This document shows positions 1,781-55,382 of a DNA stretch of 64,000 nucleotides, in pieces (position 1 is the stretch's first letter; each line of letters begins with the position of its first letter). The notes beneath the pieces were generated by a model, which did not search any database, was not told the origin of the DNA, and saw only the letters and a program-made list of their open reading frames with translations. The stretch is from contig NZ_PIPR01000001.1 of assembly GCF_003987355.1 (NCBI RefSeq), positions 868,001 through 932,000 on the forward strand, read 5' to 3'. The stretch is from Pseudidiomarina aestuarii (GTDB lineage: Bacteria > Pseudomonadota > Gammaproteobacteria > Enterobacterales > Alteromonadaceae). Both the position numbers and the translations under genes were made by a program.

Positions 1781-1895
1781 GAACTTCGTTGTTCGTTGTT
1801 CGTTATTCGTTGTTCGATTCAACAACAATAGTGGAGGAAAGTCGAGGGGGCTTTGTCGAATAACGAGTAACGACAGCGAAGCGTTCGAGTAACGC
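1781..1895. repeat. Heptad inverted-repeat element 1
   Basis: The left arm (1781-1820) is a run of 7-bp units of the form GTTCGTT, GTTCGTT, ATTCGTT, GTTCGAT. The right arm (1855-1895) carries the inverse units (CGAATAA, CGAGTAA) and ends in a small perfect hairpin, AAGCGTT-CGAGT-AACGCTT. The core holds AAAGTCGAGGGGGCTTT. The element sits 16 bp past the 3' end of the SRP RNA and just upstream of the kynA ribosome site, so it may act as terminator or leader. It belongs with the six other heptad elements of this window. Confidence 0.75.
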
Positions 1896-1911
1896 TTTTG
1901 GTTTTAGATTG

Positions 1912-2024
1912 GGTGGCGGCCCTACCAGCCACACCTCGGCACCCACATCCCCAACTACGGCTGCTCCCTTCCGGGCCTGACCGGGTTCGCTAGTTCGTGT
2001 TGCGAGGGGACCAATAGAGCCACC
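1912..2024 (-). ncRNA. ffs: Signal recognition particle 4.5S RNA
   Basis: Read on the minus strand, the sequence begins GGTGGCTCTATTGGT and ends GGTAGGGCCGCCACC, so its termini pair. In between it contains the universally conserved SRP domain IV: GGTCAGGCCCGGAAGGGAGCA, with the GGAA tetraloop and asymmetric internal loop that Ffh binds. Its length of 113 nt matches the 114 nt of the E. coli 4.5S RNA. With Ffh and FtsY it targets nascent membrane proteins to the translocon. A strong stable-RNA type promoter lies immediately upstream (2037-2065). Confidence 0.96.
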
Positions 2025-2036
2025 ATAACGGCGCGC

Positions 2037-2065
2037 ATTATGCAGTATTGCACCCGAGGACACAA
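2037..2065 (-). promoter_or_regulatory. Probable sigma-70 promoter of the SRP RNA
   Basis: On the minus strand there is a TTGTGT -35 hexamer, a 17-bp spacer and a CATAAT -10 hexamer. A GC-rich discriminator (GCGCGCC) follows, with the mature RNA starting about 12 bp downstream. The -10 plus discriminator block is nearly identical to that of the tRNA operon promoter at 37696-37724. The GC-rich discriminator is typical of stringently controlled promoters. Confidence 0.7.
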
Positions 2066-2095
2066 GGTATGCGCCCTCAAGTGCTGGCTTTTTAA

Positions 2096-2842
2096 TCAGC
2101 TTTTCTTTTTCATTCTTGCAGCGATAGCTGCTTTCGCTTCGGGTGACACCAGCGCTTTCGCGAATACTTTCGCTTCTCGAGCAATTCGATCAGCAACCGG
2201 TTCTGCAGGTTCCTTCATTAATCTCTTGGCAGCTCGAAGTCCAGCTACGGGTCGCTTCGCTAATTCTGTCGAGACCTCTGCCACGGTCGCCTCAAGTTCA
2301 TCTGCAGCAACAACTCGATTGACCAAACCGTAAGTCAACGCTGTACTGGCATTAATCGCATCACCTAATAGGAGCATCTCCGCCGCCCGTAAATGTCCAA
2401 TTTGTTGCGGTAATAGCAAACTAGACGCGGCTTCCGGAACGAGGCCAAGATGAATGAAAGGTAACGAAAACTGCGCATCACTGCTGGCATATACCAAGTC
2501 GCAATGCAGCAATATGGTGGTGCCAATGCCAATCGACAGGCCATGCACCGCCGCAATCACTGGCACGGATAATTGGCTCAATGTGTACAAAAACGCAAAT
2601 GGTGGCGCTGAATCATCAAGCTTCTCAATCGCCAAAAAATCATTCAAGTCATTGCCCGCGGTAAAACTATCGCCACTTCCGGTCAACACGACCGCAGCTA
2701 CGGATTGGTCTGCTTCGGCATCCTGCAAGGCCGCAGTCATTGCACGATACATATCTTGGGTTAGCGCATTTTTCTTGTGGCTACGATTCAGTCGAATCCA
2801 AACAACCGCATCGCGTTTTTCAACGTTGACAAACTCACTCAC
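2096..2842 (-). CDS. Enoyl-CoA hydratase/isomerase family protein
   Basis: This is a crotonase-fold protein of about 248 residues. It shows the family features: NALTQDMY near residue 26, the oxyanion-hole segment SGDSFTAGNDLNDF, and AAVHGLSIGIGTTILLHCDLVYAS for the second half of the CoA pocket. The sequence most resembles PaaG-like enoyl-CoA isomerases or hydratases; the exact reaction cannot be read. The start is a GTG. Two GTGs are adjacent, and I prefer the second because GGGAG then lies 7 bp away. The start overlaps the stop of the upstream KAS III gene, so the two are translationally coupled and probably act on the same acyl thioesters. Confidence 0.85.
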   Translation of the reverse strand: MSEFVNVEKRDAVVWIRLNRSHKKNALTQDMYRAMTAALQDAEADQSVAAVVLTGSGDSFTAGNDLNDFLAIEKLDDSAPPFAFLYTLSQLSVPVIAAVHGLSIGIGTTILLHCDLVYASSDAQFSLPFIHLGLVPEAASSLLLPQQIGHLRAAEMLLLGDAINASTALTYGLVNRVVAADELEATVAEVSTELAKRPVAGLRAAKRLMKEPAEPVADRIAREAKVFAKALVSPEAKAAIAARMKKKS

Positions 2843-3923
2843 CACGTTTCTCCCAAGCTGCTTTCGTTTGCAAATGTAGCGGCAAAATTAGATCGAGTGC
2901 GCTTTGACCGTTGCTGGGTAATTGCATTGTGTTGTCGCGCTTTGGAGTGACACGTTGCCCCCAACGGATAATACCCGCGCCACAAGTTAAGCCGCCACCA
3001 AAGACTGCCGAGACAATGGTATCGCCGGGTTTCACAATGCCCTGTTCAACTGCTTCGCAGAACGCAATGGGTAGTGTTGCCGACGACGTATTGCCGTATT
3101 TTTGGATGTTGATGACCGTTTTTTCTTCCGGAACATGACACATTTTGGCGAGAAAATCGATAAGTCGCTTGTTTGCTTGATGCGGAATCAATGAGTCAAT
3201 GTCAGCAGTCGTCAATCCGGTTTCAGCAAATACCTTTTCCACCGCAAGGCTCATGCCTTTGACAGCACGCTTGAAGATTTCCTGACCGACAAAATTAAAC
3301 GGCATAATGCCGTCAAAACCAAAACGATCGAAACTCATACCAAATTCGAGGGCTAGAACATCACGGGCATCAGCATCACACGTAACATGCGATGCTAATA
3401 ATCCGACTTCTTCAGTGGTTGCTTCAAGTACCATTGCACCAGCACCATCACCGAATAGCACCGCGCTCTCCCGCTGCGTCCAATCGAGAATTCGCGTGAG
3501 TCGTTCTGCACCGATAATCAAAACCTTTTTGTGCACACCGGTACGAATCGCCTGCGTCGCATAATGCATGCCATATAGAAAGCTGCTGCAAGCTGCATTC
3601 AAATCAAAAGCCGCCGCGTACTTCGCACCGATATCACGCTGAACCGCAGATGCCACGTTTGGAATGATTTCATCAGCAGTACAAGTTCCGACTATGATCA
3701 GATCCAGTTCATTTGGATCAAGATCGGCTGCGGCAAGCGCGTTACGAGCGGCAACAGTTGCGAGATGCGAAGTACCAACATGGCTCACGCGACGCTCTTC
3801 AATTCCCGTACGAGTGCGAATCCATTCATCGGACGTATCCAAGAAAGTCGCAAGATCGTCGTTGGTCATAATCGCAGGTGGCAAACATTTGCCCCACCCG
3901 GTAATCTCTGCATATATTTTCAC
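2835..3923 (-). CDS. Beta-ketoacyl-ACP synthase III family protein
   Basis: This is a FabH/KAS III-type thiolase-fold condensing enzyme, which normally joins an acyl-CoA to malonyl-ACP. The full triad is visible: Cys112 in AACSSF, His248 in PHQANKR and Asn278 in YGNTSS, with the GDGAGAMVLE motif and a glycine-rich FGGGLTCGAG end. It is longer (362 residues) than typical FabH (about 320) because of a C-terminal tail of some 35 residues after IIRWGQR. The start is GTG. It is not in a fab cluster. Coupling to a crotonase gene suggests a specialised acyl chain or degradation role rather than primary fatty acid initiation; that is inference. Confidence 0.9.
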   Translation of the reverse strand: MKIYAEITGWGKCLPPAIMTNDDLATFLDTSDEWIRTRTGIEERRVSHVGTSHLATVAARNALAAADLDPNELDLIIVGTCTADEIIPNVASAVQRDIGAKYAAAFDLNAACSSFLYGMHYATQAIRTGVHKKVLIIGAERLTRILDWTQRESAVLFGDGAGAMVLEATTEEVGLLASHVTCDADARDVLALEFGMSFDRFGFDGIMPFNFVGQEIFKRAVKGMSLAVEKVFAETGLTTADIDSLIPHQANKRLIDFLAKMCHVPEEKTVINIQKYGNTSSATLPIAFCEAVEQGIVKPGDTIVSAVFGGGLTCGAGIIRWGQRVTPKRDNTMQLPSNGQSALDLILPLHLQTKAAWEKRGE

Positions 3924-3996
3924 GTGATAAAACCTATAGTCACTGGTCGTTTTTCGCTATCATAGCATGATTGTTCCACAGTGAAATGTCCGACCT

Positions 3997-5217
3997 ATGC
4001 CAAGATCTCCTGTTCGTCCCCCACGTCAGCCGAATAAATCGTCGAACCAAGGCGACACTTGGACCCGCACCGCAGCACCCCATCTCTGGGATAGCCCCAG
4101 TGGACGCTTGGATTTGAAGCGCTTTCCACCCAGAAACAACGCTACTTTGCAGGCTTGGGATGCAGGTGATACGTGGTTGCTTGAACGCTTAAAAACGACA
4201 GAACGGCCGGAGCATCTGTTACTGGTCAATGATAGCTGGGGCGCGCTGTTGTGTGGAGCCCAACAGCTATTCTCGAACGCGAACTCAGTAACCATAAGTC
4301 TAGTGACCGATTCGTACTTAGCCGATCAAGCCTATCACCAGAATACCGCTGCGAACGCGCTGAAAGGTGCCTATTCGACCGTTAGCCCACTCGAGACTCT
4401 GCCTCAGGACATCAATCATGTGCTCATGAAGCTGCCGAAATCGCAAAGTTTACTCGAACGTCAATTAGCACAGCTGAGTCGAGACCTAGCGCCGGGAACT
4501 CTGCTGCAAGTAGCCGCCAAGAGTCAGTTATTTACACCCGGTGTTCGGGAAATTTTTGCACACTATTGCGATTCGGTTGAGGTCTCCCTCATTCAGCGTA
4601 AACATCGATTGTTAACGGCTCGAATCCGAGCACAGTCGTGGCCAGAACACGATTTTCAAACAACTTGGCAAGAACTGGGATTAACACTAACCCAGCATGC
4701 TGGGGTCTTTGCTCGCAATCAACTCGATATTGGTGCCCGCTTTATGATTGAAGTCATGGAGCGACATCTATCGTCACACCCAACTGGAGCGAAAGTCGCC
4801 GATTTGGGCTGCGGCAACGGTATTCTTGGTTTAATTTATGCACAATGGCATCCTGACGCTCAGGTCACGTGGTTTGACGAATCGAAACTGGCCGTTGCAT
4901 CTTGCACTAGAAATATAGAGCAGAACTTGGGCACGTCAGAACGTTATCAAGTTCTTCTCGATGATTGCCTGAGCAGCGTTGCCACGAGCTCTTTCGATCG
5001 CGTGCTGTGCAATCCACCATTCCATCAAGAGCATGCCATGACCGATCACATTGCGAAGCAAATGATTCGTGACTCACGTCGAGTGCTGAAACCTGGCGGT
5101 GAATTATGGCTAGTCGCTAACCGTCATCTTCCGTATTATTTGATTTTGCAAAAGACATTTCGACTGGTAGAGCCAGTTGAACAGAATAGTAAATTTGTGG
5201 TGTACCGAGCGGTTTAA
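3997..5217 (+). CDS. rlmG: 23S rRNA (guanine-N2)-methyltransferase RlmG
   Basis: RlmG methylates G1835 of 23S rRNA with S-adenosylmethionine. The product has the two-domain layout of RlmG/RsmC. A degenerate N-terminal methyltransferase-like half is followed by an active C-terminal half with the SAM loop VADLGCGNGILGL (about 268-280), the catalytic NPPFHQ motif and the RlmG-type ending ANRHLPY...NSKFVVYRAV. The first 35 residues are basic and proline-rich and extend past the E. coli protein, so the start could lie further in. It is divergent from the KAS III gene across a 73-bp gap. RlmG is preferred over RsmC because of its length and C-terminal end. Confidence 0.88.
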   Translation: MPRSPVRPPRQPNKSSNQGDTWTRTAAPHLWDSPSGRLDLKRFPPRNNATLQAWDAGDTWLLERLKTTERPEHLLLVNDSWGALLCGAQQLFSNANSVTISLVTDSYLADQAYHQNTAANALKGAYSTVSPLETLPQDINHVLMKLPKSQSLLERQLAQLSRDLAPGTLLQVAAKSQLFTPGVREIFAHYCDSVEVSLIQRKHRLLTARIRAQSWPEHDFQTTWQELGLTLTQHAGVFARNQLDIGARFMIEVMERHLSSHPTGAKVADLGCGNGILGLIYAQWHPDAQVTWFDESKLAVASCTRNIEQNLGTSERYQVLLDDCLSSVATSSFDRVLCNPPFHQEHAMTDHIAKQMIRDSRRVLKPGGELWLVANRHLPYYLILQKTFRLVEPVEQNSKFVVYRAV

Positions 5218-5262
5218 GCCGAGTACTACGTTCGTCCACTAGTTTGAATGAAGGGAGTATTT

Positions 5263-5862
5263 ATGCGCTATGTAGTAAAGCTAGCGGCCATTTTAGCCGG
5301 ACTCATGTTGATGTCCCCCGCTACCTCAGCGAATGGAATTCAGCCAGATAATCCATTCCCACGTTTGCGTTTCGTAACCTCTCTCGGCAATCTCGAGATC
5401 GAGTTGGACCGCTATAAAGCGCCGCTTACTGCCGAAAACTTTCTCGACTACGTCAAAGCGGGTAGCTACAACAATACGATATTTCACCGTTTAGTTCCGG
5501 GTTTCGTCCTGCAAGGTGGCGGTTATGACGAGAACTTCGAAGCGAAAACTATCTTTAAGAAGATACCCAATGAATCGGGCAACGGCTTGAAGAATGTTTA
5601 TGGGACTATTGCGATGGCTCGTGAAAGTGACCCACATACCGCAACTCGACAATTTTTCTTTAACCTGAACGACAATACATCACTCGATCCGTCGAGCAAG
5701 GGTTGGGGCTATGCGGTTTTTGGTTGGATCGTAAGTGGCGAAGAAACGCTTGAAAAGCTTGCAGCACTCGAATCAGTGCCCTTCGACGAGAAAACATTAT
5801 GGCGCGATGTCCCTAAAGATCCGCCCGTACTCATTCGTATCGAAGTCGTACCACAATCATGA
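5263..5862 (+). CDS. Periplasmic peptidyl-prolyl cis-trans isomerase (cyclophilin)
   Basis: This is a cyclophilin-type isomerase of about 199 residues, similar to PpiA. A Sec signal peptide (MRYVVKLAAILAGLMLM, cleaved near TSANG) sends it to the periplasm. The cyclophilin core follows, with NFLDYVKAGSYNNTIFHRLVPGFVLQGGG holding the catalytic Arg, then RQFFFNLNDN and GYAVFGWIVSG. I chose the ATG at 5263, not the upstream in-frame ATG at 5248, because GAAGGGAG lies 5 bp before it and the signal peptide then starts properly. Its stop overlaps the AmpG-like gene (ATGA), so both are on one transcript. Confidence 0.9.
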   Translation: MRYVVKLAAILAGLMLMSPATSANGIQPDNPFPRLRFVTSLGNLEIELDRYKAPLTAENFLDYVKAGSYNNTIFHRLVPGFVLQGGGYDENFEAKTIFKKIPNESGNGLKNVYGTIAMARESDPHTATRQFFFNLNDNTSLDPSSKGWGYAVFGWIVSGEETLEKLAALESVPFDEKTLWRDVPKDPPVLIRIEVVPQS

Positions 5863-7217
5863 CCGATTCGCAGACCAGCGCTGCACAACCATGGTACCGA
5901 GACCTCGCGGTCTATCGCGAGGCTCGTGTTTGGCAAATCTTTGGGTTCGGGATTATCAGCGGTTTCCCTTGGGTCCTGATTGGTTCAATGTTGTCGGCAT
6001 GGCTACAAGAAGAAGGACTTTCGCGCGGTTCGATTGGTCTCTTCGGAATTGTGTTTGTCGCCTACAGCATCAATGCACTGTGGTCACCCTTGGTTGATCG
6101 CTTTCGCCTACCGTTGTTGCATCGATGGCTTGGTGCCCGCCGCAGCTGGATCGTTCTGTGTTTGAGTGGTCTCGCACTCGCAACTCTCTTCATGAGCACA
6201 CTCGATGTGCAGAATAATTTGTATTGGATAGCGGTTGCCGCTGTTGCGATAAGTTTTTTTTCAGCAACGCAAGATATCGCGATAGACGCCTTTCGAATCG
6301 AAAGTTTTGCCGCCAATGAATCACGATTACAATCAGCCGGCGCTGCCATGGCTACTGCTGGCTGGTGGACGGGCTACAGCGGTCTGGGTGCGATTCCATT
6401 CTACCTAGTCGACGGCGTTACCTACTCGTGGCAAGACGCCTACTGGGTTTTGCTCGGCGTGCTTGCGGTGCAACTGCTCTTTGTCATTATGGTTGCCGAA
6501 AGCAAACGCTACCACGCCATTAAGCAAGTTCGCGTGCAGGGCTTTCGCTGGTGGACGTGGGTACAACAAACCTTTGTCGCGCCCGTAGTTGAATTTTTTA
6601 CGCGCAATGGCTGGCAACTTGCTACAGCGCTCTTAACTTTTGTCTTTGTCTTTAAGCTCGGTGAAGCCTTTTTGGGCCGGATGTCGATTGTCTTCTACAA
6701 AGAAATTGGCTTCACCAACGACCAGATTGCAACCTATTCTAAAGTGATTACTTGGTGGGTCACGATTGTTTTTGCGGTTCTGGGAAGTATTGTCAATATT
6801 CGTATCGGTATTGTTCGCGGCTTGCTCATCGGTGGTGCAGCCATGGCAGCGAGCAATCTCCTCTTCGCCTGGATAGCGCTAGTCGGCGCCGATACCGACT
6901 TGTTGCTCGCTGCGGTACTGATCGATGGGTTTACCAGTGCTTGGTCAACAGTTGCCTTTGTGGCCTTTATTAGCTTGCTCTGTAATCGCACATTTACCGC
7001 ATCGCAATACGCCTTGCTGGCATCACTCGGCAATCTCGGTCGAACCTTAGTCTCCTCCTATAGCGGTTTTGTGGTCGATTGGCTGGATGGCAACTGGAGT
7101 TTGTTCTTTATTTTAACCAGTGTCATGGTGATACCCGGCTTATTGATTCTGTTGGCGCTTCGCAAACGCTTGGGTGAACTCGAAGCCGACTATCATCGTC
7201 ATCAAGAGGCTGATTAA
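5859..7217 (+). CDS. ampG: AmpG-like major facilitator permease
   Basis: A 452-residue inner-membrane MFS protein with about 12 hydrophobic segments. The signature SATQDIAIDAFRIE (about 127-140), WLGARRSW after the second helix pair and the N-terminal WQIFGFGIISGFPW match AmpG. AmpG imports anhydro-muropeptides released from peptidoglycan turnover for recycling and, in some species, beta-lactamase induction. It is translationally coupled to the upstream cyclophilin, a pairing seen in other gammaproteobacteria. The PanE-like gene starts 2 bp after its stop. The substrate assignment is by family only. Confidence 0.87.
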   Translation: MTDSQTSAAQPWYRDLAVYREARVWQIFGFGIISGFPWVLIGSMLSAWLQEEGLSRGSIGLFGIVFVAYSINALWSPLVDRFRLPLLHRWLGARRSWIVLCLSGLALATLFMSTLDVQNNLYWIAVAAVAISFFSATQDIAIDAFRIESFAANESRLQSAGAAMATAGWWTGYSGLGAIPFYLVDGVTYSWQDAYWVLLGVLAVQLLFVIMVAESKRYHAIKQVRVQGFRWWTWVQQTFVAPVVEFFTRNGWQLATALLTFVFVFKLGEAFLGRMSIVFYKEIGFTNDQIATYSKVITWWVTIVFAVLGSIVNIRIGIVRGLLIGGAAMAASNLLFAWIALVGADTDLLLAAVLIDGFTSAWSTVAFVAFISLLCNRTFTASQYALLASLGNLGRTLVSSYSGFVVDWLDGNWSLFFILTSVMVIPGLLILLALRKRLGELEADYHRHQEAD

Positions 7218-7219
7218 AC

Positions 7220-8143
7220 ATGCGCTGGTTAGTCTATGGTGAGGGGGCATTGAGTGGGTTGATTGCGGCAAAATTGCAACAGCAACATCAACACGTGATG
7301 GTCGCTACTCGCTCTGGAACGCCACCACAAGCCTTTATCCTTAATCAAGAAAGCACCATTGAACTCGATGCATTCGATCCGGCTCAAGCGCCTGACGTTG
7401 TGATTGCAGCGCTCAAAGCCTACGATATTGAAGCCTGGTTAGAGCAAGTTCAAGAACACTCTTGGTACCGCCACATCCCGCTTATTCTGAGCTATAACGG
7501 TATGCTTGTAGCCGAGGAGTCCGTGTTGCCAGCAAATAGCTTTCATTGGGTGACCACACAGGGTGCATTTCGTCATGGTGCGCAACTCAATCATGCTGGA
7601 CAAGGTGAGAGTTGGTTAGGAGCGCAGCAACGCGACCGTGCCTGTCCTGCAGAAATGTTGGCAACGCTAAATCGCAGTTTGCCGCCGTTTGAATGGCTAC
7701 CAAATATTCAGCTCAAACGTTGGCAAAAATTGGCGATCAATTGCTTAATCAATCCTCTAACGGTTCTCTATAACTGCAACAACGGTGAATTACTCAATCA
7801 CCCTATTGCAGAACCTCAACAACAATTAGCCAATGAGTTCGTTGCACTCGCAAAGCAGTTGGGGATGCAATGGTCGGCTGCTGAATTAGTTGCAGATGCG
7901 CAAAGAGTTATTCAGGCGACAGCAAATAACCGTTCGTCGATGCTGAGTGACATCATTCGGCATCGCCGTACTGAAATAGATTATCTAAATGGCTTTGTTG
8001 TTCAGCAATGCGAGCAACTCGGGCTGTCTGCTCCCACCCATCGTTGGCTATGGGAGCATGTCAAAGCGGTTGAAAATCGCCCTCAGCTCTCGTCTTCAAT
8101 AAAGTCAACGACTTCAAGACCGAATCCAGACAGGGCTGAATAG
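7220..8143 (+). CDS. panE: Ketopantoate reductase family protein
   Basis: This NADPH-dependent enzyme of the ApbA/PanE family would reduce 2-dehydropantoate to pantoate for coenzyme A. The N-terminal Rossmann segment reads [17 protein letters not shown], a slightly altered GxGxxG. The C-terminal half has the family [22 protein letters not shown] motif with the catalytic Lys and the later [23 protein letters not shown] motif with substrate contacts. Length is normal (307). The last 20 codons overlap the 3' end of the opposing riboflavin gene by 61 bp, a fully coding convergent overlap. It is in a plus-strand operon with the cyclophilin and AmpG genes. Confidence 0.87.
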
Positions 8144-9210
8144 CGCTTCGGCGAGCTCATCAGATGCATTTGGTGAATGCCTAAATCAGCCAATATTTGC
8201 GAGCCAATACCGACATTTCGCGATGCGTTTGAGGCCGCTGCAGATACGCGCTTTTCACCACGATCTTCAGCGGCGAAGCTTTGCACTTGCTCCAAAATAT
8301 CTGCTGAACTTTGCTGCCGACCGATCACGACTAATACCCCACCGTGCTCACCAATATACTGCATCGCGTGGCCCAAGGGCCAACTGCGCTTAGCAGCACG
8401 TTCGGTAGCAAACAGGTCATTGAAGGTGTCTTGCAAATGGACACGTACATTGACCGGTTCTGCAGCAGAAATCTCACCTTTGACCAAGGCATAATGCACT
8501 TGGTTGTCGATTGTATCTTGATACGTGATCAGCTCAAATTCACCGTGCGCAGTAGGCAATTTACAATGCGCTTTGCGCTCAATCGTTTTTTCTTTTAGCG
8601 AACGGTACTCAATCAAATCCGCAATGGTGCCGATTTTTAAATCGTGCTCCGCAGCAAATTTTTCTAAGTCGGGGCGCCGCGCCATGGTGCCGTCTTCATT
8701 CAAGATTTCAACAATCACTGCCGCGGGTTCAAAACCTGCTAATCGCGCTAAATCACAACCGGCCTCGGTATGCCCCGCTCGGTTTAATACGCCACCGGCT
8801 TTCGCTTTCAATGGAAAGATGTGCCCAGGCATCACCAGATCCGTTGGCTTGGCATCCTTCGCAACCGCGGCCTGAACTGTGCGAGCGCGATCTGCCGCTG
8901 AAATCCCAGTCGTCACACCTTCAGCTGCTTCAATAGATACAGTAAAGTTAGTGGCATAGGGTGAGTGATTTTGATCGACCATAAGTGGGAGACGCAGTTG
9001 TGTGCAGCGCTGCTCAGTCAGGGTTAAGCAGATTAATCCACGTCCAAACCGTGCCATGAAATTGATTGCAGCGGGTGTGACACACTCCGCCGCCATAATC
9101 AAATCACCTTCATTTTCGCGATCTTCGTCATCCATCAGAATGACCATTTTACCTTGCCGGATATCGTCGATAATCTCAGCAGCGCTATTCAGCGTTGTCA
9201 CGATGTTCAT
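8083..9210 (-). CDS. ribB: 3,4-dihydroxy-2-butanone 4-phosphate synthase fused to a degenerate GTP cyclohydrolase II-like domain
   Basis: Residues 1 to about 205 form an intact DHBP synthase: the acidic loop [11 protein letters not shown], then [10 protein letters not shown] and [14 protein letters not shown]. It makes the four-carbon unit of riboflavin from ribulose 5-phosphate. Residues from about 215 look like RibA, but the zinc-binding Cys cluster of real GTP cyclohydrolase II is gone: the matching stretch reads [21 protein letters not shown]. This is the RibBX type known from Shewanella relatives, so GTP cyclohydrolase II must be encoded elsewhere. It overlaps ribD (ATGA) and has AGGAGA before its ATG. 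No riboflavin synthase or ribH gene follows. Confidence 0.9.
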
Positions 9211-10298
9211 TCTCCTAAGCCAGTATCTGGCTTCGCTATAATGCGGATGTCAGCACCAATTTGGCGAACATCCGTGAAAATACATTTGGGGGCATCCGCG
9301 ATATTGCTAAAGATCGGTATTTCGACCAGACCGCGACCTGTTGCACCGAAAAACTTGGGGGCGACATAGATCACCCATTCATCAATCAGACCTTCTTGCA
9401 TTAAACTTCCCGCCAGCTCAGCTCCACACTCCGTCCAAACATCATTGATTTGGCGACGCCCCAATTCTGCGACTAATGCCTGCAGATCAACCCGACGCTC
9501 TGTGCTCGGCGCTGTCCATACCTCAACGTGTTGAGGCCACTGCACCGCACGATCTGGAGTTGCGGCTGTCTGTACCAGCAAAATAGGTGATGACTCTTGA
9601 AAAAGGCTCGCGGTCGGTTCCAGTAGCCCTTGGCTGTCAATAATGACGCGTAACGGTTGCTGTTCGCACCGCTCTGTGCGTGCCGTTAATCGAGCATTGT
9701 CACGTAACACCGTTCTCGCTGTACTCAAAATTGCCCCGCTACGAGCGCGAAAGTCATGTACATCAGCTCGTGCAGCAGTACCCGTGATCCATTGACTGGC
9801 GCCGTTAGCCAACGCGGTACGGCCATCTACAGTGGCTGCTAACTTGACGCGTAACCACGGTCGACCGCGCTCCATTCGACTACGAAAGCCACAATTCATT
9901 GTGCGCGCAGCAGATTCTAAGACTCCGACTTCCACAGCTATACCCGCGGCCTTTAACTTCTCGACACCACGCCCAGCAACCAATGGATTTGGATCGAGTT
10001 GGGCAATGACGACACGACTAATTGCAGCGTCAATCAGTGCGTCAGCACAGGGAGGAGTACGGCCAAAATGGCTACAAGGTTCAAGTGTCACATACGCAGT
10101 GGCGCCACTTGCTAACGCCCCAGCTTCACGCAATGCATAGACTTCGGCATGCGGCTCGCCCGGGCGCTCGTGCCAGCCGCGGCCGACAACTTGACCGTCG
10201 GCAACAATAATGCAGCCGACTTGTGGGTTGGGAGCGGTTGAATAGGAACCACGAGCAGCTAGATCGAGTGCCATCTGCATATACTGCTGATGTGTCAT
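9207..10298 (-). CDS. ribD: Bifunctional riboflavin deaminase-reductase RibD
   Basis: RibD carries out two successive steps of riboflavin synthesis: deamination of the pyrimidine and reduction of the ribosyl side chain with NADPH. The N-terminal cytidine-deaminase-like zinc site is plain (PHAEVYAL near residue 50, then [11 protein letters not shown]). The C-terminal reductase domain starts near 145 with [18 protein letters not shown] and holds the GSGA-like ASQWITG loop. Length (363) matches the family. It sits between nrdR (20 bp away) and ribB (4-bp overlap). Confidence 0.95.
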
Positions 10299-10318
10299 GA
10301 GAGTGCCCCGTGAATCAG

Positions 10319-10768
10319 TTAATCGTTCAGCCGTGCAATCTCTTCGCCGAATTCTCGAATATCATCAAATGCACGATAAACAGATGCGAATCGAATATAA
10401 GCCACCTTGTCGATAGCCTTGAGGTTTTCCATGACCAGCGCCCCAATTGCTTGACTCGTCACCTCGCGCTCACCGGTGGCCCGCAACGAGGATTTCACGT
10501 TATTGATGGCCTGCTCCATCATTTCTAAGCTAACTGGACGTTTCTCCAGCGCTCGAAGCAAACCATTTCGAAGTTTATCCTCGTTGAACGGTTCACGGGT
10601 GCCATCCGTTTTAATGACACGTGGCATAATCAACTCAGCGGTCTCGAAAGTCGTAAACCGCTCTTTGCAGTCGGTGCATTCACGACGGCGGCGCACAGAC
10701 GCGCCCTCTGCAACCAAACGGGAGTCGATAACTTTGGTATCTAACGTGCCACAAAACGGACAATGCAT
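10319..10768 (-). CDS. nrdR: Transcriptional repressor NrdR
   Basis: NrdR binds ATP/dATP and represses ribonucleotide reductase genes at NrdR boxes. The product has the N-terminal zinc ribbon ([15 protein letters not shown], then [12 protein letters not shown]) and the ATP-cone domain ([20 protein letters not shown]). Length (149) equals that of E. coli. In many bacteria it heads the riboflavin genes, as here: the order is glyA, nrdR, ribD, ribB on one strand with gaps of at most 28 bp. No NrdR box or reductase gene is in this window. Confidence 0.96.
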
Positions 10769-20018: not shown

Positions 20019-20033
20019 TCAATTCCTCATTGA

Positions 20034-20116
20034 CTAGCTACTAGCTAATAGCTAATGGCTATTTGAAACGACAATCCCACGCTCTTCGAGTAACTAGTAG
20101 CTAATAGCCAGTAACG
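20034..20116. repeat. Heptad inverted-repeat element 2
   Basis: The left arm (20034-20064) is made of 7-bp units TAGCTAC, TAGCTAA, TAGCTAA, TGGCTAT. The right arm (20088-20116) is the inverse series TAACTAG, TAGCTAA, TAGCCAG. The core reads, on the minus strand, GAAGAGCG-N11-TTTC, the same pattern and length as in element 5. The element begins 5 bp past the sirB2 stop and fills the gap to sirB1. Both genes are on the minus strand, so the element would be transcribed between them. Confidence 0.85.
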
Positions 20117-29471: not shown

Positions 29472-29574
29472 ACAGTGAGCAGTGAAAGGTTAACAGTGAA
29501 TAGAAAGGGCTAAGCCAAAAAGGAGCGCTCTTTTTAATCTTTGCTGTTCCCTATTCACTGTTCACTGTTCAATG
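29472..29574. repeat. Heptad inverted-repeat element 3
   Basis: The left arm (29472-29503) is AGTGAGC, AGTGAAA, GGTTAAC, AGTGAAT. The right arm (29544-29574) is the inverse of AGTGAAC-type units. The core includes AAAAAGGAGCGCTCTTTTT, giving AAGAGCGC on the minus strand, the same octamer as in elements 2 and 5. It fills the whole gap between the convergent stops of ychF (4 bp) and the YfcC gene (3 bp), so it could act as a two-way terminator. Confidence 0.85.
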
Positions 29575-30948: not shown

Positions 30949-30984
30949 CTATCTTCCCTGTTTTGATAATAACTACGGACTATT

Positions 30985-31065
30985 AGTAAATAGTAAATAG
31001 TGAATAGCGAACAGTGGATGGTGAAAAGTGAACAGTTAACTGTTTACCGTTCACTATTTACTGTC
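30985..31065. repeat. Heptad inverted-repeat element 4
   Basis: This is a clear 7-bp register: AGTAAAT, AGTAAAT, AGTGAAT, AGCGAAC, AGTGGAT, GGTGAAA, AGTGAAC, AGTTAAC (30985-31040), then the inverse units up to 31065. The turn is the palindrome AGTTAACT. It begins 7 bp past the hemoglobin stop and occupies two thirds of the gap to the YfcC gene downstream on the same strand, so it could end one transcript or shape the leader of the next. Confidence 0.82.
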
Positions 31066-36823: not shown

Positions 36824-36930
36824 AAGGGCGCTAGATGGCGAACGCTACTAGTTATTAGCTACTAGAAGAGCGCAGATCTGGGTTTTCTAATAACTAGTAA
36901 CTAGTAACTAGTAACTAGTAACTAGTATCG
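36824..36930. repeat. Heptad inverted-repeat element 5 with five AACTAGT copies
   Basis: A flank GGGCGCTAGATGG (shared, inverted, with element 6) leads to the left arm (36845-36865, TACTAGT/TATTAGC-type units), then a core AGAAGAGCGCAGATCTGGGT ending in TTTTC, then five perfect copies of AACTAGT (36892-36926). The core matches that of element 2 at GAAGAGCG-N11-TTTC. It starts 7 bp after the fumC stop and ends about 20 bp before the SDR ribosome site. Confidence 0.9.
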
Positions 36931-36953
36931 AATTTTGTTTATCAGGAGGTTTT

Positions 36954-38316: not shown

Positions 38317-38407
38317 CTAGCTGCTTGCTATTGGCTACTGGTTACTAGAAAACCTAGGTCTGTATTTTTCCAGTAACTAATATCTAATGGCGCTCCTCAT
38401 CTAGCGC
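38317..38407. repeat. Heptad inverted-repeat element 6
   Basis: On the minus strand it aligns end to end with element 5: flank GCGCTAGATG, left arm (TTAGATA, TTAGTTA, CTGG...), core ACAGACCTAGGTTTTCT against GCAGATCTGGGTTTTCT, then right arm TAGTAAC, CAGTAGC, CAATAGC. The element fills the gap between the tRNA terminator (5 bp) and the ubiF stop (5 bp). Confidence 0.85.
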
Positions 38408-46332: not shown

Positions 46333-46527
46333 ATGGAAAATATAATTGCAGCCGCTATTTTTGCCGTGCTTGTTGCCGCAGGTACGCTGGGTGTGAGCAG
46401 TATTGGGATGTTCATTTTTCATCGTAACCCAGACCAGCCTGAAGCGCAGCAACGTGAGCGCTTTGAATATGGCTTTTTCGGTCTAGCGGGTATCGTGGTG
46501 ATGCTACTCATGTGGTACGCCCTGTAA
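46333..46527 (+). CDS. Small two-helix membrane protein of unknown function
   Basis: A 64-residue ORF. It has a first hydrophobic helix (NIIAAAIFAVLVAAGTLGVSSIGMFIF), a charged turn (HRNPDQPEAQQRERFEYGF) and a second helix (FGLAGIVVMLLMWYAL). GGAA lies 8 bp before the ATG; a GTG four codons earlier is an alternative. I do not recognise the family. It fills the gap between lnt and leuS with codon use like its neighbours and is probably a real gene. Confidence 0.6.
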   Translation: MENIIAAAIFAVLVAAGTLGVSSIGMFIFHRNPDQPEAQQRERFEYGFFGLAGIVVMLLMWYAL

Positions 46528-46610
46528 TTCAGCGTTTCTTAATCGCTTTGCCATCCTTTGATTAGTGTCCAGTGTGACGACACACAATAACCATCGAGTC
46601 AGGAATAGAC

Positions 46611-49208: not shown

Positions 49209-49231
49209 TCATCAGAGAGCATCATATCGTC

Positions 49232-49738
49232 ATGAAAAAACAGCTAGTAACGCGACCCTCATTTGTACGATGGATGACTCTCGGACTGGCCGCGCTGGTC
49301 ATTTCCAGTTGCGGCTTTCAATTGCGGGATAGTTATCAACTGCCAACGCAACTGGAAACTGTGTACATTCAAGCCGAACCTTTTAGTGAGTTTGCAGAAA
49401 TTTTAGCGTCGCGACTACAACTGGCGGGCGCACAGCTCGACGAACAGCCTCGGCAAACCGTCATACAACTGGTGAGTGATAGCCTCGACCGACGCACATT
49501 GTCGTTATCCAGCAGTGGTCAAGTAGCTGAGTATGAGCTCATTTACACGGTAGAGTATGTGCTGCATAACGGTCCTCAAACCAGTATCCCGCTGCAGGTG
49601 GAAGTATTTCGAGACTACCAAGATGATCCAAACTTTGCACTGGCGAAAACTCGTGAGCGTGAGGTGCTGGTCACTGAAATGCGTGAGGACGCGGCACGTC
49701 AAATACTTCGGCAAATTTCCGCCCAACTGACCCCATAA
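49232..49738 (+). CDS. lptE: LPS-assembly lipoprotein LptE
   Basis: LptE plugs the LptD barrel that inserts lipopolysaccharide in the outer membrane. The 168-residue product has a lipoprotein signal (FVRWMTLGLAALVISSC), followed by GFQLRDSYQLPTQLETVYIQA, as in all LptE. Place is diagnostic: leuS-lptE-holA. Confidence 0.94.
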   Translation: MKKQLVTRPSFVRWMTLGLAALVISSCGFQLRDSYQLPTQLETVYIQAEPFSEFAEILASRLQLAGAQLDEQPRQTVIQLVSDSLDRRTLSLSSSGQVAEYELIYTVEYVLHNGPQTSIPLQVEVFRDYQDDPNFALAKTREREVLVTEMREDAARQILRQISAQLTP

Positions 49739-49750
49739 GCTGAGTTCAGA

Positions 49751-50785
49751 ATGGCTACCGTGAATGCGCAACAACTCAACGATGTCCTCGCAAGTCGCGG
49801 TCTGCCCCCGATTATCTGTATTTTCGGCGACACGCCTCTGCTAGTCGACGACGCTGTGCAAGCGATTCGCAACTACGCCAAGTCACAGGGTATCCATGAG
49901 CGCCAGCGTCTCGTTCAAGATGCACAGTTTGATTGGAATCAGATTTTAGCGTCTGGGGCCAGCATGAGTCTGTTCTCGGAACTGCGCCTGGTCGAACTCG
50001 AATTACCCGATGCGAAACCCGGGCGAGAGGGAGGCGATGCTCTGCGTAGCTATGCCGAGCAACCCAATGTTGACCAGGTTTTCGTTGTCCTCGGGCCAAA
50101 GTTAAAACAAGAACAACTCAAGGCGAAGTGGTATCAGATTCTGACCCGCAACGCGCTGGTTGTTGCGGCCAATGCGCCCGATCGAGCAGCATTACCGCGT
50201 TTCATTGATGCCCGCGCCCGGCGCTACCAACTTGAGCTGGACCGCGAAGCACTGAATTTGTTAGCCGATTGGTACGAGGGCAATCTGCTGGCACTCGACC
50301 AAGAACTCCAAAAACTGGCGCTGATGGGCCTGCCCCAACCCCTCAACCTAACAACGGTTCGCCAAAGTAGCCAAGACCAAAGTCGATTCAGTGTTTTCGC
50401 CTTGCAAGAAGCGCTGCTGCACGGCCAAGTCGATGATGCGTTACATCGTTTACATCGATTGTTCGAAGAGGATGTCGAAATCGCCATTTTGAACTGGATG
50501 TTTCAACGCGAGTGGCAAACGGTTCATGCCTTGCAACAAGCGTTAGGGCGCGGTGAACCTATTGGGCAAGCAGCTCGCACGCTCCCCATTTGGAAGAATC
50601 AAGAAGCCGCTTACCACCAAGTCGCCCAGCGTCTGCAAGGACAACACCGGGCCATTACAGATATGCTCAAACGACTTGAGTTTGCATTCAAACGTGACAG
50701 CGGTGAGGACTATAAAACACTAGCAACACACTTTGTCTTGTTGTGGTGTTTGCCTGACCGTGTCACTCGGTTGTCGCTCACATGA
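49751..50785 (+). CDS. holA: DNA polymerase III subunit delta
   Basis: HolA is the clamp-loader arm that opens the beta clamp. The 344-residue product begins VNAQQLNDVLASRGLPPIICIFGDTPLLVDDAVQAIR, has the clamp-contact region MSLFSELRLVELELPD and the C-terminal collar domain (FSVFALQEALLHGQVDDALHRLHRL). There is no Walker motif, as expected. It overlaps nadD (ATGA). Confidence 0.95.
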   Translation: MATVNAQQLNDVLASRGLPPIICIFGDTPLLVDDAVQAIRNYAKSQGIHERQRLVQDAQFDWNQILASGASMSLFSELRLVELELPDAKPGREGGDALRSYAEQPNVDQVFVVLGPKLKQEQLKAKWYQILTRNALVVAANAPDRAALPRFIDARARRYQLELDREALNLLADWYEGNLLALDQELQKLALMGLPQPLNLTTVRQSSQDQSRFSVFALQEALLHGQVDDALHRLHRLFEEDVEIAILNWMFQREWQTVHALQQALGRGEPIGQAARTLPIWKNQEAAYHQVAQRLQGQHRAITDMLKRLEFAFKRDSGEDYKTLATHFVLLWCLPDRVTRLSLT

Positions 50786-51438
50786 CCGAACTGACGCCAA
50801 CTTGTGGGAGATTACGCCTCATATTAGGTGGGACGTTTGATCCGCTCCATTGGGGACATCTGCGGCCAGCTCTGAATGCTTTGAGTTGGTTACAGGCCGA
50901 TGAATTGCGGTTACTTCCGAGCGCTCAACCCCCGCATCGCGATTACCCCGGTGCCACGGCAGAGCAGCGTCTCAAGATGACCGAGTTAGCAACGGCTGAA
51001 TTCCCACACGTCTATGCGGATGATTGGGAACTGCGACAAAATCGTCCGTCCTATACGGTACAAACGCTGGAAGAACTTAAACAACGTTGGCCACAAGACA
51101 CTCTAGTATTTCTGTTGGGCGAGGACGCCATCGCCAAACTCAATGGGTGGTATCAATGGCAAGATCTTCTCAACCATGCACATTTTGCGATTTTATCGCG
51201 CCCTGATCAGGCACCGACTTGGCAACCTGAGGTGACCGATTTCTTCGCCAATCGTTGGCTAACCTCACCGAGAGAGCTACGCCGATCAGCCCACGGTTGC
51301 GCGATTCGTGTTGCGAATGAAACCTATCCCATTGCCGCGACTACAGTGCGTCACCGAATTCAGCAACAATTGCCATGGGAGTCGCTCGTGCCACCTGCTG
51401 TAGCTGCTTTTATTCAAACAGAAGGCTTGTATCGTTAG
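50782..51438 (+). CDS. nadD: Nicotinate-nucleotide adenylyltransferase
   Basis: NadD joins nicotinate mononucleotide and ATP to make deamido-NAD. The nucleotidyltransferase loop GGTFDPLHWGHL (residues 12-23) and the late AATTVRHRI motif (the usual ISSTxIR) are present, with RPSYTVQTLEEL in the middle. Length is 218. It is coupled to holA and precedes rsfS as in other gammaproteobacteria. Confidence 0.95.
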   Translation: MTELTPTCGRLRLILGGTFDPLHWGHLRPALNALSWLQADELRLLPSAQPPHRDYPGATAEQRLKMTELATAEFPHVYADDWELRQNRPSYTVQTLEELKQRWPQDTLVFLLGEDAIAKLNGWYQWQDLLNHAHFAILSRPDQAPTWQPEVTDFFANRWLTSPRELRRSAHGCAIRVANETYPIAATTVRHRIQQQLPWESLVPPAVAAFIQTEGLYR

Positions 51439-51501
51439 CTGCTTTTCGGGACTTAAACGTGATAAACTGCGCGAACTTTCGACCTATGGAGATTATTTCT
51501 T

Positions 51502-51825
51502 TTGCAAGCTGAACAATTACGCGATTTTGTTATCGAAAAGATAGAAGAGTTAAAAGGCCGCGACATTCGTGTGCTCGACGTCATGGAACAAACCGATGTC
51601 GCTGAATACATGATCGTCTGTTCAGGCAGCTCGAAAACACATGTTCGCAGCATTGCCAATCATGTCGCTACTGAGTCTAAGCATCATGGTGTTGCCCCAC
51701 TGGGTATTGAAGGAAACGAACATTCAGAGTGGGTTTTGGTTGATTTAGGTGATGTGATTGTTCATGTCATGCAAGAACCTATTCGTGACTTTTACGAATT
51801 AGAAAAACTTTGGGGCCGTAAGTAA
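51502..51825 (+). CDS. rsfS: Ribosomal silencing factor RsfS
   Basis: RsfS binds L14 and blocks subunit joining when nutrients are short. The 107 residues follow the family: [55 protein letters not shown] and YELEKLWG. The start is a TTG, with GGAG 10 bp upstream; no in-frame ATG fits. Its stop shares a base with the rlmH start (TAATG). Confidence 0.94.
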
Positions 51826-52295
51826 TGCGTATTCAGCTGATCGCAGTCGGACAAAAAATGCCTGACTGGGTCAGCACTGGTTTTGCAACCTATGCGAAAC
51901 GACTTCCCCCCGAGTGTGCTTTAGACCTCATTGAGATTGCCGCAGGTAAACGTGGCAAAAATGCGGATGTCGCCCGTATCGTCAAACAAGAAGGCGATGC
52001 CATGTTAGCGGCCTGTGGCAAAGGCAATCGAATTGTCACTCTTGAGGTCACGGGCAAGGCTTTCACAACACCCCAGTTAGCTCAACGACTAGACGCATGG
52101 CAAATGGACGGGCGTGATGTGAGCTTGTTAGTTGGTGGTCCCGAAGGACTGTCTTCTGAGTGCACAGCCGCTGCTGAAGAACGCTGGTCATTGTCGCCAC
52201 TGACGCTGCCGCATCCAATGGTCCGTGTGATTCTCGCGGAAAGCTTGTATCGCGCTTGGAGTGTCAACGCAAACCATCCTTATCATCGCGAATAG
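51825..52295 (+). CDS. rlmH: 23S rRNA pseudouridine-1915 N3-methyltransferase RlmH
   Basis: RlmH, a SPOUT methyltransferase, modifies pseudouridine 1915 in helix 69 of 23S rRNA on assembled ribosomes. The knot region [13 protein letters not shown] and the C-terminal [29 protein letters not shown] are typical. Length is 156. It is coupled to rsfS, and mrdA starts 2 bp after its stop. Confidence 0.97.
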
Positions 52296-52297
52296 AC

Positions 52298-54175
52298 ATG
52301 AGATCAAGAAACCGACAGACCATCAGAGATAGCCATGCTGAAGCCGCACTATTTAATCGTCGTGTTGGCTTCGCCATGTTTGTGGTCGTTGTCGTGTTTA
52401 GCGTCTTACTCTACAACATGTACTCGTTACAGGTTGTCCAGCATGAATCCTTTCAAACTCGTTCCAACGACAATCGTATTCGGGTTGTGCCGATAGCGCC
52501 GAACCGGGGATTGATCTATGACCGTAATGGTATTTTGCTCGCAGAAAATCGTCCGGTTTTGAGTTTGGAAATAACGCCAGAGCGCGTCCAAAACCTCGAG
52601 GATACATTGCAACGGCTGCAGCAACTCCTGAATCTTGATGATGAAGCAATCAGCGACTTTTATACGGCGCAAAAACGGGAACGTCGATTCCGCTCCGTGA
52701 TCTTTCTCGACAGTCTCAATGAAGAACAAATTGCGCGCTTTGCTGTGCGTCAACACGAATTCCCGGGAGTCAGTCTCGAAGCGCGCTTAGTTCGTCACTA
52801 CCCTTACGCAGATGCGCTTACGCACGCATTGGGTTACGTCGCCAAGATCAATCGAAACGATGTGATTGAACTCCGCGAAAAAGGCGTGCAAGCCAACTAT
52901 GCAGCTACGCGAACCATTGGTAAGCTCGGCGTCGAAGGCTTCTATGAAGAACTATTGCATGGCACTGTGGGGTATCAGCAAGTCGAAGTCGATATTCACG
53001 GTCGGATGCTGCGCACACTCAGTATTGAGCCACCTATTCCGGGTCAAGATCTGTATCTCGAAATTGATTTACCACTACAACTCAAAGTCGATGAATTATT
53101 AGGTGATCAACGTGGCTCTATTATTGTCATGGATCCACGTGATGGCGGCATCCTCGCCATGGTGAGTAAGCCCAGTTATAACCCCAATTGGTTTGCGCAA
53201 GGGATCTCTGTCGCTCAATATCAGAGTTTGCTGCAATCGCGACATTCACCACTGTTAAATCGCACCACCCAAGGCGGTTACCCGCCGGCCTCGACGATCA
53301 AGCCGCAGCTTGCGATTGTCGGTCTCGAAGAACAAATCATCACACCAGAGACCAAAATTTGGGATCCAGGTTGGTTTCAGATCAAAGGCGTGGACCATCG
53401 CTACCGAGATTGGTTGTCTTGGGGCCATGGGTGGGTCAATGTGACCGATGCTATCGTCGAAAGTTGTGACACATTCTATTATGACCTCGCGTTAAAACTC
53501 GGTATTGATACGATATCCGAATACATGACACAGTATGGCTTTGGCGAATATACGGGTATCGACATTGCGGAGGAAACCGCTGCGGTTATGCCGTCGCGAG
53601 GCTGGAAACGCGCTCGCTTTAATCAACCTTGGTATGCGGGTGAGACTGTATCGATCGGCATTGGTCAAAGTTATTGGACCTCAACACCCATGCAACTCGC
53701 CGTTGCCACCTCAGTCGTAGCGAATCGAGGCAAACGTCCGGTGCCGCGCTTATTGGGTGAGATTGTTGATGGAGATATTCGGCTTCCCGCCGTTGTAGAA
53801 CAGCGCCCCCCAGTTGTCTTAACCAACCCTGAGAATTGGGAAATCGCGCGCGATGCCATGACTAAAGTGGTCGCTTCAGCCAAAGGGACTGCACGCACTG
53901 CGTTTAGAGGAGCTACTTATACGTCGGCCGGTAAAACAGGGACCGCGCAAGTCATTGGAATCGCGCAAGACGCCGAATATGATGCAGAAAGCATTGCAGA
54001 GGAACATCGGGATAATGCCATGTACGTTGGCTACGCGCCGCACGATGAGCCGGAAATTGTGATTGTACTAGCCGTTGAGAACGCTGGTGGTGGCGGTAGT
54101 GTTGCGGCACCATTAGCCAGAAAAGTTATGGACTTCTATTTTAGTCAGGTAAATACCCTTGCAAACAACCGCTGA
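52298..54175 (+). CDS. mrdA: Penicillin-binding protein 2
   Basis: PBP2 is the transpeptidase of the rod-shape elongation complex. It has an N-terminal membrane anchor (about 26-45), a pedestal domain (about 60-230) and the transpeptidase with STIK (in GGYPPASTIKPQLAIV), the SCD motif (VESCDTFYYDLA) and KTG (SAGKTGTAQV). It has 625 residues (633 in E. coli). The ATG after the rlmH stop is the likely start; upstream codons lie within rlmH. It overlaps rodA by 17 bp. Confidence 0.96.
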   Translation: MRSRNRQTIRDSHAEAALFNRRVGFAMFVVVVVFSVLLYNMYSLQVVQHESFQTRSNDNRIRVVPIAPNRGLIYDRNGILLAENRPVLSLEITPERVQNLEDTLQRLQQLLNLDDEAISDFYTAQKRERRFRSVIFLDSLNEEQIARFAVRQHEFPGVSLEARLVRHYPYADALTHALGYVAKINRNDVIELREKGVQANYAATRTIGKLGVEGFYEELLHGTVGYQQVEVDIHGRMLRTLSIEPPIPGQDLYLEIDLPLQLKVDELLGDQRGSIIVMDPRDGGILAMVSKPSYNPNWFAQGISVAQYQSLLQSRHSPLLNRTTQGGYPPASTIKPQLAIVGLEEQIITPETKIWDPGWFQIKGVDHRYRDWLSWGHGWVNVTDAIVESCDTFYYDLALKLGIDTISEYMTQYGFGEYTGIDIAEETAAVMPSRGWKRARFNQPWYAGETVSIGIGQSYWTSTPMQLAVATSVVANRGKRPVPRLLGEIVDGDIRLPAVVEQRPPVVLTNPENWEIARDAMTKVVASAKGTARTAFRGATYTSAGKTGTAQVIGIAQDAEYDAESIAEEHRDNAMYVGYAPHDEPEIVIVLAVENAGGGGSVAAPLARKVMDFYFSQVNTLANNR

Positions 54176-55274
54176 ACGAGAAAGAAATCCCTGGTTACAA
54201 CGCTTCCACATTGATGGACCCTTGTTTGTGGCGCTGCTGGTATTAGCGGCAGTATCACTAGTCACCGTTTATTCCGCCAGCGGTCAGAATGTGGCTATGT
54301 TGGAACGTCAGGTCATGCGTATTGGTGTTGCCTTTGTCGCAATGTTGTTTATTGCGCAAATTCCACTGTCTGCAATACAACGCTGGTCACTCCCGCTATT
54401 TGCGGCAGGCCTCGTACTGTTGCTGGCCGTACTGTTGTTCGGTGAATCCAGCAAAGGCGCGCAACGTTGGCTGAATATTGGTGTCGCAACAATTCAGCCG
54501 TCTGAGCTGATGAAACTTGCGGTGCCTATGACCATAGCCTGGTTTATTGCTGAACAAGGTATTCCGCCGAGAAAACGGCGTCTACTCGCAGCTATGGTCC
54601 TTCTACTCGTGCCAACCCTCATGATTGCCAAGCAACCTGATTTAGGCACCTCGCTTCTGATAGCGAGCTCCGGCATTTTTGTCTTGTTTTTGGCGGGCCC
54701 GAGTTGGCGTTTGATTACCGCCTTCATAGTCGGTATTGGTTCCTTTATTCCGGTGCTCTGGATCTTCTTGATGCGTGATTATCAACGGCAACGCGTTTTG
54801 ACATTGCTAAATCCCGAAAGTGACCCACTCGGGAGTGGTTATCAAATCATTCAATCCAAGATTGCTATTGGCTCCGGCGGTATCGAGGGAAAAGGTTGGC
54901 TTGAAGGCACACAATCGCAACTCGAATTTCTGCCTGAACGTCACACCGACTTTATCTTCGCAGTATTCGCCGAGGAATTTGGTTTGGTCGGCGTCATTGG
55001 ATTGCTGCTGTTATATAGCTTCATTATCTTTCGTGGTCTACAAATTGCGATGCGCGCACAGCAAATCTATCAAAAATTGCTCGCGGGTAGCCTCATTTTG
55101 ACCTTTTTCGTGTACGTTATGGTCAATATCGGCATGGTTTCAGGATTATTGCCGGTGGTTGGTGTGCCATTGCCGCTGATCAGTTATGGTGGTACGTCAA
55201 TGGTGACACTACTGGCCGGATTTGGTTTGTTAATGGCTATCGCCACCAACCAACGACTGGTTATGCACAACTAG
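54159..55274 (+). CDS. mrdB: Rod-shape glycosyltransferase RodA
   Basis: RodA, a SEDS-family peptidoglycan polymerase, works with PBP2. It has about ten membrane helices and the SEDS blocks AQRWLNIGVATIQPSELMKLAVP, QPDLGTSLL, FLPERHTDFIFAVFAEEFG with the catalytic Asp, and PLPLISYGGTSMV. The start is a TTG inside the end of mrdA, with AGG upstream. Its stop codon lies inside the first units of heptad element 7. Confidence 0.95.
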   Translation: MQTTAERERNPWLQRFHIDGPLFVALLVLAAVSLVTVYSASGQNVAMLERQVMRIGVAFVAMLFIAQIPLSAIQRWSLPLFAAGLVLLLAVLLFGESSKGAQRWLNIGVATIQPSELMKLAVPMTIAWFIAEQGIPPRKRRLLAAMVLLLVPTLMIAKQPDLGTSLLIASSGIFVLFLAGPSWRLITAFIVGIGSFIPVLWIFLMRDYQRQRVLTLLNPESDPLGSGYQIIQSKIAIGSGGIEGKGWLEGTQSQLEFLPERHTDFIFAVFAEEFGLVGVIGLLLLYSFIIFRGLQIAMRAQQIYQKLLAGSLILTFFVYVMVNIGMVSGLLPVVGVPLPLISYGGTSMVTLLAGFGLLMAIATNQRLVMHN

Positions 55275-55382
55275 CTACTGGCTACTGGTTACTCGCGAAC
55301 AACGAATAACGAATAACGAATAACGAATAACGAATAACGAATAACGAATAGCTAGTAGCTAATAGCCAATAGCTAGTAACGC
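55271..55382. repeat. Heptad inverted-repeat element 7 with seven AACGAAT copies
   Basis: The left arm (55271-55293) is CTAGCTA, CTGGCTA, CTGGTTA. Then come seven perfect copies of AACGAAT (55301-55349). The right arm (55350-55382) is the inverse series, TAGCTAG, TAGCTAA, TAGCCAA, TAGCTAG, TAACGCG. The core seen in other elements is missing. The rodA stop codon (55272-55274) is part of the left arm, and the mltB ribosome site follows within 15 bp. Confidence 0.92.

Follow-up and report, generated by a model that had tools for sequence, protein, structure and literature searches.

Palindromic repeats with heptad arms behind gene ends in Pseudidiomarina aestuarii

Seven gaps between genes in a stretch of 64,000 nucleotides of Pseudidiomarina aestuarii (assembly GCF_003987355.1, contig NZ_PIPR01000001.1, positions 868,001 to 932,000; called the window below) hold runs of degenerate 7-bp units. 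These heptad elements raise the question whether they are simple satellite DNA, structures selected as RNA or as DNA, or copies of a repeat family with a design of its own. On balance we favour the last reading. The gaps probably, though far from certainly, hold a family of short, non-autonomous palindromic repeats at gene 3' ends, the heptads of which change by 7-base steps under sequence constraint.

Elements of the window and their anatomy

With a strict period-7 setting (17 of 21 matches), runs were detected in six of the seven gaps named by an initial annotation and at no other position of the window. Twenty Markov shuffles of the window gave no such run, and a scan of periods 4 to 15 gave runs at 7 and 14 only. 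The seventh gap (38317-38407), missed by the strict scan, was caught by a model of the unit, which found seven elements in the window, one per gap. By eye, this element is related over its full length to the one at 36824, which has the opposite orientation. Inspection also revealed mutually inverse halves in all seven elements, where the annotation had stated this for nearly all. Folded against dinucleotide shuffles, six of them performed better (z -3.1 to -6.4) and the element at 38317 weakly so (z -1.4). The seven runs and their inverse halves were thus both confirmed. The elements are:

1781..1895, no strand, heptad element 1: units TTGTTCG/TTATTCG; arms 1785-1818 and 1856-1873; period-7 run, unit model, z -4.4; neighbours are a signal recognition particle (SRP) RNA gene and a tryptophan dioxygenase gene
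20033..20116, no strand, heptad element 2: units CTACTAG/CTAATAG; arms 20033-20066 and 20086-20116 with the core between; period-7 run, unit model, z -3.2
29472..29574, no strand, class II element: left arm of CAGTGAA type; period-7 run, z -6.4, right half alone caught by the unit model; convergent gap between ychF and a DcuC-family gene
30979..31065, no strand, class II element: left arm TAGTRAA/CAGTGAA, right arm inverse; period-7 run, z -6.1, one arm kind only seen by the unit model
36824..36933, no strand, heptad element 5: arms 36843-36866 and 36886-36933, core with AGATCT; period-7 run, unit model, z -3.1; neighbours are a fumarase/aspartase-family gene and a short-chain dehydrogenase gene
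38317..38407, no strand, heptad element 6: arms 38317-38349 and 38369-38388; unit model, z -1.4; neighbours are tRNA-Leu and a convergent FAD-binding oxidoreductase gene
55270..55382, no strand, heptad element 7: arms 55270-55295 and 55296-55381, the right one enlarged by a TTATTCG array; period-7 run, unit model, z -5.6

All seven are intergenic, each next to the 3' end of a protein-coding or RNA gene, element 1 conditionally. It is intergenic only if translation of tryptophan dioxygenase (gene at 668) begins near 1762 rather than at TTG 1828, and its place depends on our reading of the overlapping 86-aa open reading frame (ORF) 1803-2063 as spurious. Element 7 provides the stop codon of the upstream RodA/FtsW-family gene; the next gene encodes an SLT_2 transglycosylase.

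The usual layout is CAARAGCG, four heptads, a core of about 21 bases, four inverse heptads and CGCTYTTG; element 2 matches this 4+4 template with a core of 21 bases. In a sample of 2.06 Mb from 23 genomes the unit model found 121 elements, compared with none in a Markov shuffle of the same bases. The units of both sides point inwards in 97 elements and outwards in one, while 23 show a single arm kind. With a template of CG, four units, core, four units and CG, 80 of the 121 scored above 45 bits, some of these being longer arrays, and the core measures 21 bases in 23 of the 80. Outside the arms the ends read CGCTTTTG or similar on both sides, and shared terminal inverted repeats are present there (tested on ends reading CG). 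Many cores of this species resemble the palindrome GAAAACACAGATCTGTGTTTTC. A scan for it gave 8 matches at 5 mismatches against 0 and 1 in two controls, and 27 at 7 mismatches against 3 and 21; since separation was poor at 7 mismatches, only the strict end was used. Folding of the 94 two-armed elements yielded a median z of -5.4, with 91% below -2. The earlier description of a dispersed non-coding family with a shared layout, other than simple satellite DNA, is upheld by these data.

Divergent unit sequences, also part of that description, were not confirmed. AACTAGT, AACGAAT, TAGCTAA and GTTCGTT are one unit NTRYTNG in different phases or strands, mostly YTAYTRG in this species. AGTGAAC alone belongs to a second class, the rarer class II of the elements at 29472 and 30985, with left arm YAGTRAA and units pointing the opposite way. 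Two further class II (AGTGAA) elements were seen by eye in the scanned stretches of this genome (L034:8712-8790 and L043:13118-13247). Other species of the genus use units of their own, namely ATATTAG/ATATTGG (G010, G011, G017, G019), CTGTTCG/ATGTTCG (G004) and TTATTGG (G002, G003). Stop codons in every frame were considered as a rationale of the unit and rejected on inspection, the G004 units being stop-free on both strands. RptR was likewise dropped as the reader of the heptad: its TAGCTA site, as given in an excerpt of PMC12255303, resembles the units of this species only, and no RptR search was made.

Change from one inner unit to the next was counted in long arms (at least five units), 43 of them from this genome. 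Here positions 1, 4 and 6 account for 197 of 241 such differences, mostly as C/T, C/T and A/G respectively, and in other genomes for 34 of 44, a contrast overstated by an unquantified amount as the unit model that cuts the arms favours its own fixed positions. The constancy of positions 2, 3, 5 and 7 suggests that the heptad has a reader.

The number of units shifts in 7-base steps. Behind ychF, where an array was seen by eye in seven of 26 genus genomes, 12 units were counted in G011 and 5 in the close species G019. Of the evolution proposed in the annotation, change by such steps is supported. Conversion, also proposed there, was tested between the two halves and not seen in this genome: likeness of arms was no greater within elements (0.522) than between elements (0.555, n=50). 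In a related clade the values were 0.733 and 0.660 (p 0.005, n=26), in a set that mixes subtypes. Furthermore, head-to-tail rows of four elements (L153:11914-12296, G019) and three elements (L041:2737-2993, G000) were observed, so whole elements can also duplicate in tandem.

Place, number and spread of the copies

With genes called by a simple ORF rule, 70 of the 121 elements lie in codirectional, 30 in convergent and 14 in divergent gaps, four at stretch ends and three inside called genes. Background gaps of at least 80 bases, element-bearing ones included, numbered 346 codirectional, 71 convergent and 162 divergent. Compared with these, elements are enriched in convergent and depleted in divergent gaps (p 2.5e-4 each). 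In codirectional gaps they begin a median of 9.5 bases behind the upstream stop and end 26.5 before the next start.

The host genome comprises 2.64 Mb and is 99.5% complete. In 464 kb of it (the window and 20 stretches, five of them chosen for known matches), 26 period-7 runs were found, compared with 0 to 6 at periods not divisible by 7. The 22 stretches not selected for matches (440 kb) contain 22 elements, from which about 132 copies in this genome are estimated by proportion. A covariance model built from 19 elements gave at least 148 matches here, both strands counted and 150 candidates scored. Profile searches, which the annotation had proposed as a check, thus recovered the family in this genome and, with the covariance model, in 18 of the 26 genus genomes. 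The model misses some copies: G006, G009 and G021 are without a match, yet have a hairpin in the pnp gap.

Order-wide, 10 of 295 genomes matched including this one, the other nine of 294 with 1 to 8 weak matches each. The family is therefore largely confined to Pseudidiomarina. Of the matches outside the genus, three from other families (L236, L237 and L238) were inspected: two are heptamer arrays, one of TAGCTGA/TAGCTAC and one of GCCATTA, and the third is a TTATTAG hairpin. On a tree of three gene pieces, the presence/absence label needs four changes. A unit-free scan of 60 stretches from 22 congeners found 34 period-7 runs, and periods 6, 9 and 12 gave 25, 24 and 39. Because these periods are also frequent there, the excess at 7 is clear in the congeners only by its layout.

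Exchange of hairpin types and published repeat families

Orthologous gaps, the comparison of which the annotation had also suggested, were aligned as slots in two regions of about 20 kb from six related species; the regions were chosen for holding elements and repeat types were assigned by simple expressions. A repeat was present in at least one species in 15 gaps, and two or more repeat types in 12 of these. Of 83 readable cells 74 are occupied, some by two or three types, and 9 are empty. In 11 of the 12 multi-type gaps, a heptad element in some species is opposed to a repetitive extragenic palindrome (REP) or a GCGAAGCG-type palindrome in others, and plain REPs are the counterpart in six of the 11. 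The twelfth differs in heptad subtypes and a composite, and in nothing else. From shared letters, the GCGAAGCG type may be related to TTATTCG heptads. The genes flanking the slots are about 87-99% identical between the species compared (G017 and G011).

Cores were found inverted as well. At one gap G010 and G011 read one way and G022 and G040 the other, and a second case concerns the same gap in two close species (L137:14954-15070 of G008 and L138:17441-17530 of G018). A copy inserted backwards would look identical to an inverted core. When the aligned slots were checked for target-site duplications, exchanged spacers were seen, and no two slots formed a clean filled/empty pair with exact borders.

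In L215, L216, L217 and L218 (G011, G019, G010 and G022) the same gaps carry REP palindromes with a GTAG head, as well as tandem rows that contain CTGATAACAGG or GCAGGCAATAAC motifs. Genes of the family PF01797 are present in G010, G011 and G019 and not in this genome.

A literature search at the level of titles and abstract openings gave no description of this Pseudidiomarina family. The annotation's remark that it knew of no named element of this kind holds at that level; a close published parallel is nevertheless given by the GGGAATC heptamer repeats of Xanthomonas (PMC4692102), which we regard as the closest published format, followed by REPs and bacterial interspersed mosaic elements (BIME). 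In two Xanthomonas genomes 186 and 183 repeats were counted, mostly of four units, with close inverted array pairs in 70 and 75 cases. They are intergenic to 89-93%, lie at a mean distance of 28 nt from the 5' neighbouring ORF, are rare between divergent genes and keep the same gene context between two species in 83% of the cases (PMC4692102). Both families share the period of 7, mostly four units, inverted pairs, an intergenic place, fixed and free unit positions, and a length variable between species. In contrast, the unit NTRYTNG is without G tracts, whereas the G-rich unit GGGANTN was studied as a quadruplex former; the shared format thus needs no quadruplex. For Xanthomonas, the excerpt of PMC4692102 showed neither common ends nor a core nor exchange with other hairpins, all of them features of the Pseudidiomarina family.

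With REP/BIME, the elements share being short multicopy intergenic palindromes behind stop codons (PMC3733652, PMC12306157), and REPs occupy the same slots in related species. They differ by lacking the GTAG/CGTC tag at the foot of a palindrome of 20-40 bases, and have ends CAARAGCG/CGCTYTTG and long heptad arms instead. The TAACTGA repeats of marine Beggiatoaceae are also intergenic heptamers with similar letters (PMC4679880). These, however, repeat one exact unit in direct orientation, mostly immediately upstream of start codons, and no RNA structure was predicted by their author, according to the excerpt; our elements have another unit, inverted arms and a place behind stop codons.

Further likeness is found among bacterial miniature inverted-repeat transposable elements (MITEs). 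Those of the Correia/NEMIS type have a size of about 100 bases, terminal inverted repeats and a hairpin, and lie near genes. The present elements resemble them in all these respects, with the difference that their arms consist of tandem heptads.

Explanations of the family

As a non-autonomous repeat family, the elements would reach new gaps by means of enzymes supplied in trans and displace older hairpins there. Copies would persist where they are least harmful, directly behind the stop codon. Transcribed into RNA, the hairpin might do what REPs do and form a barrier where the upstream message ends, either against 3' exonucleases or by stalling the last ribosome. This barrier is deduced from place, fold and reports on REPs, for which ribosome stalling near stop codons was described (PMC12306157). 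Some copies, for example between rpsO and pnp, may have been co-opted.

Several observations weigh against such a family, in addition to the bias of the unit model and to the choice of regions and simple typing in the slot comparison. On reversed sequence the unit model still found 14 elements in the same 2.06 Mb. Eight of the 26 genus genomes are without a covariance-model match, and the rodA-family gap is without a period-7 run in all 20 other genus genomes that have the orthologue; together these absences indicate no essential role there. For 38 canonical elements of this genome, identity to the nearest neighbour peaks at 0.85 with no near-identical copies, so the copies look old and no fresh jump was seen. 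No mobile enzyme was identified, though the element ends were not searched against insertion sequences. Finally, the 54 codirectional elements show no preference for the RNA strand (27 to 27).

A different explanation, possible but clearly less probable, is that selection on RNA structure maintains the elements as functional 3' ends or processing sites, such as two-way terminators or RNase III sites. Their place behind stop codons and in convergent gaps fits this, as do the few empty slot cells. At least four T among the first seven bases outside the ends were found at 51% of 113 ends, compared with 12% of 13,261 background sites. The pnp leader of E. coli is an RNase III site. In Pseudidiomarina 19 of 26 genomes have a hairpin in the stretch from the rpsO terminator to pnp (only weakly heptameric in G006). 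Lineages differ in the unit of both its arms, and folding is better for the sense strand in 15 of the 19 leaders, with G005, G008, G016 and G018 as exceptions; related species are not independent in this count. The covariation score of 0.196 exceeds the 0.165 of shuffles, 3 of 500 being as high, a modest effect from 19 aligned elements that are not independent either.

Against a general RNA role stand the missing strand asymmetry, the unmatched arms of the same element in this genome, the modest covariation and the relatives without elements. The pnp leader itself is without a heptad element in seven of the 26 genomes, this one included, and the constraint on the letters goes beyond pairing. 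Replacement of intrinsic terminators, suggested by eye behind ychF, failed in the count: canonical terminators are equally common in gaps with (27 of 124) and without an element (107 of 449).

It is rather unlikely that each arm is a DNA docking array, with four sites for a protein stepping 7 base pairs, the inverted arms forming two facing stacks and the hairpin arising as a by-product. This would agree with the concentration of change on positions 1, 4 and 6, with exactly four units in 138 of 256 arms, and with the absence of both strand preference and within-element arm matching in this genome. However, the unit varies between species (e.g. CTGTTCG/ATGTTCG in G004), no protein was found, the conserved positions are ones that the unit model itself favours, and 91% of the 94 two-armed elements fold clearly better than shuffles.

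It is very improbable that the elements are a simple 7-base satellite, produced by slippage during replication and with no further design: unit number varies (by eye) and, as reported in PMC4679880 (citing Mrazek 2007) and PMC6344855, heptamers outnumber other longer tandem repeats in many prokaryotes, but fixed polarity in 97 of 121 elements, common ends, four-unit arms and the place behind gene ends speak against it. Equally hard to maintain is a REP/BIME moved by a REP-associated tyrosine transposase (RAYT; Y1 transposase, PF01797), for all the palindromes behind stop codons and the GTAG-headed REPs in the same gaps of related species; no PF01797 match was obtained in this nearly complete genome, compared with matches in 19 of 26 genus genomes, and with no GTAG head on the long heptad arms membership among REPs fails.

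Beyond the preferred reading of a non-autonomous repeat family, the parallel with Xanthomonas invites a speculative and on present data doubtful extension. Heptad-armed hairpins might form a general bacterial class in which the format is shared and the letters are not: they would stand behind a stop codon and have inward-facing arms that each count about four 7-base units, AT-rich in Pseudidiomarina and G-rich in Xanthomonas. Such hairpins would be read by a factor stepping 7 bases, and gene 3' ends would serve as slots for mutual replacement. If true, this would help to explain why 7 is a common tandem period between bacterial genes. Here the heptads make up the arms of a defined hairpin: their polarity is fixed, some of their positions are constant and others free, and the arms mostly count four units. 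The genus thereby offers a test of why the period is 7, and of whether the hairpin slots reflect a functional need or a landing preference.

Rfam at gathering score gave seven matches in the window, none of them on a heptad element. An Rfam match to V_AS9, a Vibrio antisense RNA, lies at 8997-9101 (+), entirely inside the ORF 8083-9210 on the opposite strand.

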